From positions 1-64,000 of the forward strand of contig JAJZAI010000007.1 in NCBI GenBank assembly GCA_021799495.1: a stretch of 64,000 bases of DNA. Direction: 5' to 3'. The DNA comes from Deltaproteobacteria bacterium. GTDB taxonomy: Bacteria; Desulfobacterota; Binatia; Binatales; Binataceae. How positions within the stretch are numbered: position 1 is the first letter of the stretch; each line of letters begins with the position of its first letter. Shown here in pieces: positions 25,194 through 28,450 of the stretch. A program made the translations under genes and the position numbers. The notes beneath the pieces were generated by a model that was not told where the DNA came from, searched no databases, and worked only from the letters and a program-made list of their open reading frames with translations.

Positions 25194-25445
25194 CTGCGAT
25201 GCTCCATCCGCTCAGCATGTTGTAATCGTCTCCGCAAGTTCCGGCCGCACATGGCGATAGTTCGCCGGATCGTCAACCCTGCGCCGCCGCCGGTCTGGTA
25301 ATTTGCCATCCGGAGCGCCGTCGCTGCAAACTATTGCTCGCCGTCCGCCGTCTCGTGATCCGCAAAGGCGCAAGTGTCGCCGCGACCGCGATTATGCTAT
25401 CGCTGGAAGAAACGCGGCACGACGCCTCTCGCGCAGGAGTCGCCA

Positions 25446-25925
25446 ATGAAGCGTAAAACTTTCTCCGGTCTGGTTGTCGCCGCGCTGACCGCCGCGGTCT
25501 TCATGATCAGCGGCCAGGCGCGCGCGCTTAGCCTCTCGAACCTGTTGGGCGGCGAGTCCGGGAACGTCCCCGGACTCAAGCTGATTCACGCCGGCGATCT
25601 TTCGGCCATGCTCGCGCATCACGCGGCGAATCTTTACGTGTATGACGCGAATCCGTCGGACGTGCGAGCCGAATACGGAGTCATTCCGGGCGCGCGGATG
25701 CTGCCCTCCGCCGACGGCTACAACGTCGGCGAGACCTTGCCGCCGAATAAACGCGCGACGCTGGTCTTTTACTGTCACAACCAGCATTGAATGGCCTCGC
25801 ACGAGGCCGCCCGGCGGGCGATCAAAGCTGGTTACGAAAACGTTGACGTGATGAGCGACGGAATTGCCGGATGGAAGGCGGCGGGCGATCCGACCGTCCC
25901 GGCGCCGGCGGGTGCGAGCGACTGA
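25446..25925 (+). CDS. Exported rhodanese-like selenoprotein, in-frame TGA read as Sec115
   Basis: Read from ATG 25446, the frame passes through TGA at 25788-25790 and continues to TGA at 25923, giving 159 residues. The tandem paralogue at 26027 aligns without a gap across the whole length: its LVFYCANQVCIASHEAARRA matches LVFYCHNQH-TGA-MASHEAARRA here, so TGA replaces Cys115 of the paralogue. A second Cys110 is kept, forming a C-x4-U pair. The signal peptide (MKRKTFSGLVVAALTAAVFMI to ARA) predicts a periplasmic protein. After the TGA, similarity continues through VDVMSDGIAGWKAAGDPTV, which argues against a truncated gene. The partner and substrate (persulfide, sulfur or selenium transfer) are unknown. 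Confidence 0.85.
25793..25820 (+). promoter_or_regulatory. Candidate SECIS hairpins of the rhodanese-like selenoprotein
   Basis: Two hairpins lie directly after the TGA at 25788. GGCCTC/GAGGCC (25793-25798 with 25803-25808, loop GCAC) is perfect but begins only 2 nt after the TGA. CGCCC/GGGCG (25808-25812 with 25816-25820, loop GGC) puts a G-starting loop 22 nt after the TGA, which suits bacterial SECIS better. The two compete for base 25808. High GC makes chance pairing likely, so I give moderate confidence. Confidence 0.45.
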
Positions 25926-26026: not shown

Positions 26027-26518
26027 ATGCGCGCCCGTTTGACCCCAGTTATCGTCGCGATCGCCGCGTTCTGCCTGGCGACGCCGCCAGCCTCGCACGC
26101 ATTCGACTGGACCAAAGCCTTCGGCGGATTGGGCGAACAGGAACAATTCCACACCTTCAAGCTGATTCACGTCAAAGATCTGAAAAACCTGATCGACGAT
26201 CACACCCCGAACCTGCATATCTACGACGCCAACGCGCCTGAAACCCGCGATAAATACGGTGTTATTCCGGGGGCGCAACTAATCGCGGCGCCCGGCGGTT
26301 ATCGCGTCAGCGCCACGTTGCCGGCCCAGAAGAGCGATCCATTGGTGTTTTATTGCGCCAATCAGGTCTGTATCGCGTCGCATGAAGCCGCGCGCCGCGC
26401 GCTCGCCGCCGGTTACAGCGACGTCAGCGTGATGAGCGACGGAATCATGGGATGGAAAGCGGCCGGCGAGCCGACCGTTTCCGCGGCCGCCGCGAGCGCC
26501 ACGCCGAAACCGGGCTGA
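26027..26518 (+). CDS. Exported rhodanese-like protein (Cys form)
   Basis: A 163-residue paralogue of the selenoprotein just upstream, from ATG 26027 with GGGAGA ahead. It has a signal peptide (RLTPVIVAIAAFCLATPPASHA), then a rhodanese fold: FKLIHVKDLKNLI, YDANAPETRDKYGVIPGA, then the active-site loop FYCANQVCIASHEAA with Cys110 and Cys115, and SVMSDGIMGWKAAGEPTV. The loop carries a C-x4-C pair instead of the usual rhodanese C-x-x-G-x-R. Tandem copies, one Cys and one Sec, suggest duplication followed by replacement at Cys115. Probably periplasmic sulfur relay or redox role. Confidence 0.88.
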   Translation: MRARLTPVIVAIAAFCLATPPASHAFDWTKAFGGLGEQEQFHTFKLIHVKDLKNLIDDHTPNLHIYDANAPETRDKYGVIPGAQLIAAPGGYRVSATLPAQKSDPLVFYCANQVCIASHEAARRALAAGYSDVSVMSDGIMGWKAAGEPTVSAAAASATPKPG

Positions 26519-26647: not shown

Positions 26648-28450
26648 GTGTCAGCGACCGACCCCGACCGCGCCGCCGCCGAATCTCCGGTACGCGAACT
26701 GACCCTCCGCGCCTTTGTACTCGGCGGCGTTCTGGCTTTGATTCTGGGCGCCGCCAACGCCTACCTCGGTCTTTATGCCGGGATGACGGTCTCGGCCAGC
26801 ATCCCCGCCGCCGTGATTTCGATGGCCGTGCTGCGGATGCTCGGCCGGGCGACCATCCTCGAAAACAACGTCGTACAGACGATCGCTTCCGCGGGCGAGG
26901 CGGTCGCGGCGGGCGCCATTTTCACCTTTCCCGCATTGATCATTCTTGGCCAACGCGGACCTTTGCCTTATTGGACGGTAAGCCTGCTATGCCTCGCCGG
27001 GTCGGTCATGGGGAGCCTGCTGATCGTCTTTCTGCGGCGCGCCTATATCGTCGATGAGCGGCTTCCATATCCCGAAGGCGTCGCTTGCGCCGCCGTCTTG
27101 CGCGTTGGCGAAGCGGGCGGCGCGAGCGCAGCTCCGCTCGGATGGGGAGCGCTGGGCGCGGCATTGCTCAAAACCGCGCAGGATATCCTCGGCGCCGTCC
27201 CATCGTCGCTCGGCGGCGCACGCTGGCTCGGCGCGGCGCCCATCGCTGGGTCTATGAATATTTCGGCAGCGCTGCTCGGCGTCGGCTATATCGTCGGCCT
27301 CAGGATCGCCGCACTGGTTTTCGCCGGCGGCGCAATCGGATGGTTCGCCGCGATTCCGATCGCCGCGCATTTTCATCCGGAGCTCCGCGCGCTTGCGCCG
27401 GGCGACGCCGCCGTCCGCCTGTGGAGCGGCGAAATACGCTATCTCGGCGTCGGCGCGATGCTCGTGGGCGGAGCGGTCACGCTGGCGCGGCTGCGCGGAC
27501 CGATCGCGCGCGGATTCGCCGGAGGCGTCCGGACCTTGCGCGCACGATCGGCGGCGGCGACGCGGCGCGAGGAGCGCGACCTTCCAATAATCGCCGTGCT
27601 GGTCGCGGTCGGCTGCTGCATTCCGGTAATTTTCGCGCTGTGCCTGGCTATTTCCGGTTCTATCGCCGTAAGCGCGCTGCTCGCGATCGCCCTCGCCGCG
27701 ATTGGCTTCTTTGCGACGGCGGTCGCGGGCTATCTGACCGGCATCGTCGGCGCATCGAACAATCCGGTTTCGGGCGTAACCATAATCGTATTGCTGGCGG
27801 TCGCGATCTTGCTCGCCGCGCTCGGCGTTGGCGCCGCCGTCGGCCCCCGCCTCGCGATCATGGCCGGCGCCGTGGTCTGCACCGCCGCCGCGATGGCCGG
27901 CGACTCGCTGCATGACCTCGCGACCGGCTTTCATGTTGGCGCGACGCCGCGCGCGCTCGAAATTGCCGTTCTCAGCGGCGCGGCGCTCTCGGCTTTTATC
28001 GTCGCGCCCATCCTGAATTTGTTGATTCGCGCCTATGGCATCGCCGGCACCGCGACCGCGCGCGCGCAACCGCTCGCCGCGCCGCAGGCATTCCTGATGG
28101 CGAAAGTGGCGGATGGCGTATTCCATGGAGGCCTGCCGATCGCCGCAATCGTAATCGGCGCCGGGCTTGCCGCGCTGCTCGCCGCGCTCGATTATCTGCT
28201 CGAACGCGCCGGGGCGTCGTGGCGCACGCCGGCGATGCCGGTGGCGATCGGGCTTTATCTTCCGTTCGGATTGGGCGCGGCGATTTTCGCGGGCGCGCTG
28301 GTTCGCGCCGCGAGCCACGCCCGCCGCCAATCATCGGAGGAAGCCGGGCCGGGCTTGCTGGTCGCGGCCGGGATGGTTGCGGGCGAAGCCCTGACCGGCG
28401 TCGCCGCCGGCCTGATGGTCACGCTCGGATTCAGGCTTCCGCTTTGGTAG
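26648..28450 (+). CDS. OPT family oligopeptide/metal-chelate transporter
   Basis: A 600-residue inner-membrane protein with about 14 hydrophobic segments, read from GTG 26648. OPT signatures include LRAFVLGGVLALILGAANAYLGLYAGMTVS at the N-terminus, RLPYPEGVACAAVL near residue 140, and later GASNNPVSGVTI and MAGDSLHDLATGFHVGATPR. OPT proteins import peptides or metal-siderophore complexes with protons. The substrate here is unknown. It follows the Cys-form rhodanese gene by about 130 bp on the same strand; any functional link is uncertain. Confidence 0.88.
   Translation: MSATDPDRAAAESPVRELTLRAFVLGGVLALILGAANAYLGLYAGMTVSASIPAAVISMAVLRMLGRATILENNVVQTIASAGEAVAAGAIFTFPALIILGQRGPLPYWTVSLLCLAGSVMGSLLIVFLRRAYIVDERLPYPEGVACAAVLRVGEAGGASAAPLGWGALGAALLKTAQDILGAVPSSLGGARWLGAAPIAGSMNISAALLGVGYIVGLRIAALVFAGGAIGWFAAIPIAAHFHPELRALAPGDAAVRLWSGEIRYLGVGAMLVGGAVTLARLRGPIARGFAGGVRTLRARSAAATRREERDLPIIAVLVAVGCCIPVIFALCLAISGSIAVSALLAIALAAIGFFATAVAGYLTGIVGASNNPVSGVTIIVLLAVAILLAALGVGAAVGPRLAIMAGAVVCTAAAMAGDSLHDLATGFHVGATPRALEIAVLSGAALSAFIVAPILNLLIRAYGIAGTATARAQPLAAPQAFLMAKVADGVFHGGLPIAAIVIGAGLAALLAALDYLLERAGASWRTPAMPVAIGLYLPFGLGAAIFAGALVRAASHARRQSSEEAGPGLLVAAGMVAGEALTGVAAGLMVTLGFRLPLW

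Follow-up and report, generated by a model that had tools for sequence, protein, structure and literature searches.

An in-frame TGA at the active-site loop of an exported rhodanese of Binatota: sequence evidence for a predicted selenoprotein

Can a TGA codon lying in the middle of a rhodanese gene be read as selenocysteine (Sec), or does it end the protein at the very loop which should carry its activity? This question is raised by a DNA stretch of 64,000 nucleotides (called the window in what follows) from a genome which we assign to Binatota and which is 98% complete and 3.4 Mb long. Starting from the ATG at 25446, a frame runs through 114 codons ending in LVFYCHNQH, meets a TGA at 25788-25790, resumes with MASHEAARRAIKAGYENVDVMSDGIAGWKAAGDPTVPAPAGASD and reaches a second TGA at 25923-25925. 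A first-pass annotation of the letters had predicted an exported, rhodanese-like selenoprotein with the inner TGA at an active-site cysteine. We report here that the comparison of genomes very probably sustains this prediction, and we discuss what such a protein could do.

The reading frame and the rhodanese domain

The features of the locus are collected in Table 1. The translation around the inner TGA is LVFYCHNQH before it and MASHEAARRA after it, both flanks belonging to one frame up to the stop at 25923, as had been claimed at first reading. The putative signal peptide, judged by eye, is MKRKTFSGLVVAALTAAVFMISGQARA, followed by L; the homologues have similar N-termini or N-termini with lipobox-like cysteines.

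Table 1. Coordinates of the features of the locus within the window
Feature	Positions	Strand	Basis
AGGAG, likely ribosome-binding site	25435..25439	+	sequence; 6 nt 5' of the ATG
Predicted selenoprotein gene, exported rhodanese-domain protein	25446..25925	+	159 residues including Sec115
Putative signal peptide, residues 1-27	25446..25526	+	by eye: KRK, hydrophobic core, ARA before L
TGT, Cys110, rhodanese catalytic-loop cysteine	25773..25775	+	invariant in homologue alignment
TGA, predicted to be read as selenocysteine 115	25788..25790	+	codon 115, homologue alignment, hairpin
Putative bSECIS hairpin	25805..25823	+	arms 25805-25812 and 25816-25823, loop GGC 25813-25815, 22 nt after the UGA
Terminal TGA stop	25923..25925	+	frame translation
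Tandem paralogue, C-x4-C, Cys where Sec stands in the partner	26027..26518	+	alignment, Pfam
OPT-family oligopeptide transporter	26648..28450	+	a homologue lies next downstream in nine loci of relatives

The protein matches the Pfam Rhodanese family with an E-value of 1.4e-9 (its tandem paralogue with 3.6e-10), and its score of 38.7 bits lies above the gathering cut-off of PF00581, which is 22.2. Its predicted structure has the rhodanese fold, with a pLDDT above 90 across most of the domain, and this model matches solved rhodanese domains. Cys110 and position 115 are both invariant in 27 homologues, position 115 being either Cys or Sec, which fits the placement of the TGA at the active site.

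The next gene is a paralogue which reads LVFYCANQVCIASHEAARRA at the corresponding place. The two align across the TGA without any gap and the paralogue has a Cys there, so that the TGA takes the place of its second cysteine and C-x4-C becomes C-x4-U, exactly as first described. Three genomes of the genus, this one among them, have this tandem order, the Sec gene first and the Cys gene second. In one of the congeners (L022, G006:C98) the Sec gene lacks its N-terminal part at the locus, and an N-terminal piece which matches it is located 13 kb away; this reflects either a rearrangement or an assembly problem.

Conservation of the TGA

We searched for homologues in 57 genomes, namely this one and its relatives. 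A homologue is present in 26 of them: the TGA stands at the identical column in 22 (again counting this one), which span several families of the class, while the other four have only Cys. The alignment at position 115, which had been proposed as a check, thus gave the same column for all the TGA genomes, an agreement beyond chance, and a Cys in the other homologues. A wider search found Cys forms (C-x4-C) in Myxococcota, in some Pseudomonadota and in some Elusimicrobiota, and also, within the phylum of this genome, less closely related rhodaneses (most of them multi-domain) with a TGA at the equivalent place. What marks a bacterial selenoprotein, an in-frame UGA facing Cys in homologues and kept in other organisms, is therefore found here.

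One may suppose instead that the TGA is a true stop, produced by a nonsense mutation, a decaying pseudogene or a sequencing error, with the downstream frame on its way to ruin. The intact Cys paralogue next door would make the loss of the Sec copy tolerable, and the rearranged N-terminus of the G006 copy goes in the same direction. However, an error is hard to reconcile with a TGA shared at one column by independent genomes, 22 in number and of several families, and decay is hard to reconcile with the sequence beyond it. For the three pairs formed by this genome and two congeners, the values of dN/dS 3' of the TGA come to roughly 0.40, 0.08 and 0.07, the first of them from a pair with four changed codons only; dN below dS is what purifying selection leaves, and by this measure the part of the protein which follows the TGA is being kept. 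The hairpin described below, conserved and covarying, also speaks against a dead frame. We hold this explanation to be highly improbable.

A second explanation is that the UGA does terminate translation, which then restarts at the next codon and yields two half proteins. Its appeal is that TGA is directly followed by ATG, here and in 18 of the 39 Sec-type sequences. In the others the next codon is ACG, GAC, AAG, GCC, ATT or yet another one, and because of this spread we rejected stop and restart. Moreover, a rhodanese severed in the loop of its active site would hardly function, and a split gene would not call for the SECIS-like hairpin which is kept. The chance that the gene is split in this way appears very slight.

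On a tree built from 115 domains, nine changes between Sec and Cys are required, against about 33 when the labels are shuffled; as few columns support this tree, the direction of the changes is unsure. The Cys form L032, which groups as sister with the Sec form L033 (support 99/96), retains both the CGG-CGG arginine codons and the upper stem of the hairpin. These look like the remnant of a SECIS element.

The hairpin downstream of the TGA

A published model of the bacterial SECIS element asks for a loop of 3-9 nt, a stem of 4-16 bp, a G in the first two loop positions, a spacing of 16-37 nt and an MFE <= -7.5 (PMC13188914). The hairpin of Table 1 conforms to it: its 3-nt loop begins with G, its spacing is 22 nt and its isolated stem has an energy of -8.5 kcal/mol. 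In 38 of the 39 Sec-type sequences at least six of its eight pairs are present; counted from the U of the UGA, the hairpin spans 18-36 nt, and its 3-nt loop opens with G in most sequences.

Over 33 aligned sequences, 91% of the cells are paired. Cells altered on both arms number 13, where shuffles which ignore relatedness give 2.6 on average (0 of 500 attained 13). When the arms are shifted along the alignment the covariation signal vanishes, and a consensus fold computed without guidance recovers the identical stem. Sec genes keep 7.26 of the eight pairs and Cys genes 4.73 (p 5e-15); with the comparison restricted to identical AARRA coding the Cys genes are still the weaker ones (p 9e-5), both tests ignoring relatedness.

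In this genome one inner pair of the stem is a C-A mismatch. In addition, the predicted MFE structure of the window RNA contains a competing hairpin, GGCCUC/GAGGCC, which precedes the SECIS stem and leaves only the upper four SECIS pairs. With this mismatch and this competitor, the efficiency of the element could be lower here than in the relatives. A scan against Rfam gave no match within the window.

The selenocysteine machinery

The genome has SelA (567 bits), SelB (360 bits), SelD (381 bits) and a tRNA-Sec with a UCA anticodon, so that a search for the Sec machinery, from which a refutation could have come, turned out in favour of the prediction. SelD (L050, G000:C62:169962-170888) itself contains one in-frame TGA and is probably a selenoprotein; as SelD is a well-known selenoprotein family, the Sec system has here a probable second client. 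SelA and SelB are present in 22 of the 22 TGA genomes, but each is also present in 51 of the 57 genomes searched: most relatives own both, and the co-occurrence is not significant and hence uninformative. The genome has two more rhodanese genes which had been flagged as containing one TGA; this is only their final stop, and the alpha subunit of the formate dehydrogenase has no in-frame TGA. A strong match to TsoB near selA proved to be a DsbD protein and not TsoB; DsbD is thus encoded in this genome.

One could still imagine that suppression or an altered code inserts a different amino acid, for example Trp, at the UGA. The open frame would agree with this, and nothing further does. The column is Cys and not Trp in homologues, the same gene uses TGA as its terminator, and the Sec system is complete with its UCA tRNA; among the readings considered, this one has the smallest chance.

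Hence, we concluded that the gene very probably encodes a selenoprotein with TGA 25788-25790 as Sec115, in keeping with the initial prediction, now supported by the TGA of 22 genomes, by a covarying hairpin and by the machinery. SelB and Sec-tRNA(UCA) would read this UGA as Sec on account of the bSECIS hairpin at 25805-25823, and the product would be exported, with one rhodanese domain whose loop reads Cys110-x4-Sec115. Standard gene callers stop at residue 114, so that a conserved family of an uncultured phylum would be mis-annotated.

Other C-x4-U rhodaneses

We also observed C-x4-U sites in proteins of different architecture. A distinct rhodanese, VYCAKFTUNAAEQ (1501-1788 of L049, from the relative G029:C335), is joined in one protein with the pore of an ion channel (Pfam: Rhodanese 4e-19, Ion_trans_2 2e-11) and has its own strong hairpin just 3' of the UGA; it is possibly a rhodanese-channel selenoprotein, and a match resembling it, with one TGA, lies at G023:C33:160601-160939. 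Multi-rhodanese proteins with a C-x4-U site and SECIS-like stems are found at L058, L059, L064, L068, L071, L077 and L079, those among them which were read fully having an N-terminal CxxCH and a C-terminal CCYK. L057 is a tandem rhodanese, lipoprotein-like, with two C-x4-U sites within one frame.

A possible role in sulfur redox chemistry

Rhodaneses bear a persulfide on the first cysteine of a six-residue loop. Sec115 is the final residue of this loop. If the protein is indeed a selenoprotein, a sulfur-redox mechanism can tentatively be proposed, with a likelihood a little short of even. In the periplasm, Cys110 would take a sulfane sulfur as persulfide, or an oxidised thiol; Sec115 would attack this adduct and form a Cys-S-Se-Sec bond, sulfide being released or the sulfur handed on; a membrane thiol pathway of DsbD type would then reduce the S-Se bond and recharge the protein. 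The tandem Cys copy might carry out the same reaction, either more slowly or free of selenium.

Several hints point to this redox reading. The first is the invariance of the two loop positions noted above. A second, indirect one is the fusion in TsoB of a UxxxxU rhodanese with DsbD, a carrier of thiol electrons, together with the DsbD of this genome. A third, also indirect, comes from C-x4-C relatives in Shewanella, Ferrimonas and Sutterellaceae, whose genes directly follow that of an octaheme cytochrome, with an FKBP isomerase and NrfD nearby: the cytochrome has seven CXXCH and one CX15CH, the pattern of the MccA/SirA sulfite reductase. This context, which hints at sulfur redox, is seen in distant Cys relatives and not in Binatota. 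The loci L135, L136, L142 and L143 (Ferrimonas, Shewanella, Duodenibacillus) have a C-x4-C rhodanese by genes of an octaheme sulfite-reductase-like cytochrome and of an FKBP isomerase. In the Binatota loci the conserved neighbour is the OPT transporter (nine loci).

The selenoprotein might instead handle a metal, a metalloid or selenium itself (selenite or mercury, for example), and not sulfane sulfur. Distant multi-domain C-x4-U rhodaneses exist elsewhere in the phylum, and a Geobacter cluster encodes, besides the rhodanese lipoprotein ExtH, the protein ExtI, without which the reduction of selenite and tellurite is impaired (PMC6148476). Yet the protein studied here has no match to the ExtH model, nor has L059, the only multi-domain C-x4-U protein whose full length was scanned, and the scanned neighbours of the gene include no metal or selenium genes. 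We regard such a role as unlikely.

To return to sulfur redox, one may go further and see in the exported C-x4-U rhodaneses of Binatota and related lineages a class in which Sec resolves and does not accept sulfur, that is, an undescribed selenium-dependent periplasmic persulfide/thiol reductase and a signature selenoprotein of the uncultured Binatota. This broader view is speculative and, taken as a whole, rather doubtful. Whatever the chemistry, the tandem Sec and Cys copies and the Sec/Cys switches among close relatives allow a direct test of what Sec contributes to a rhodanese active site.

Comparison with known rhodanese selenoproteins

In a literature search which covered neither preprints nor most subscription papers, we found no paper treating Binatota and selenoproteins together. 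A viral scan returned no relatives, and no NCBIfam model matches the protein above its cut-off. The best NCBIfam match is TsoB (NF045694; 1.9e-10), whose rhodanese domain likewise has two reactive positions separated by four residues. Both of them are Sec in TsoB (UxxxxU), which is also fused to DsbD, whereas our protein has Cys first and Sec second (CxxxxU) and stands alone; it scores 39.5 bits where 805 are needed. Rhodanese_LYCAU (NF041203) is likewise a small rhodanese with Sec near the catalytic Cys, but its spacing is C-x-U and not C-x4-U (27.2 bits against 115). The PQQ-dependent catabolism-associated CXXCW protein (TIGR03865) is related to rhodaneses and carries two Cys close together (local match 1.7e-9), but it has no Sec and its CW motif is missing here, W included (37.8 bits against 128). 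The C-x4-C rhodaneses of the MccA/SirA-type clusters in Shewanella, Ferrimonas and Sutterellaceae have the motif LVFYCAN..C..S in common with our protein, at 34-47% identity; they differ by having only Cys and another gene neighbourhood.

Finally we must consider the catalogue of rhodanese selenoproteins, which lists five forms: UxxS, UxxG, CxU, UxxG and UxxxxU (PMC13188914). The U-M-A-S of our protein fits form 1 (UxxS; representative WP_010941598) when compared by the printed motif alone, and the Sec of that form could be at the same position as Sec115. With its C-x4-U loop, the exported rhodanese is apparently a variant, so far not listed, of a kind of selenoprotein already known among rhodaneses.
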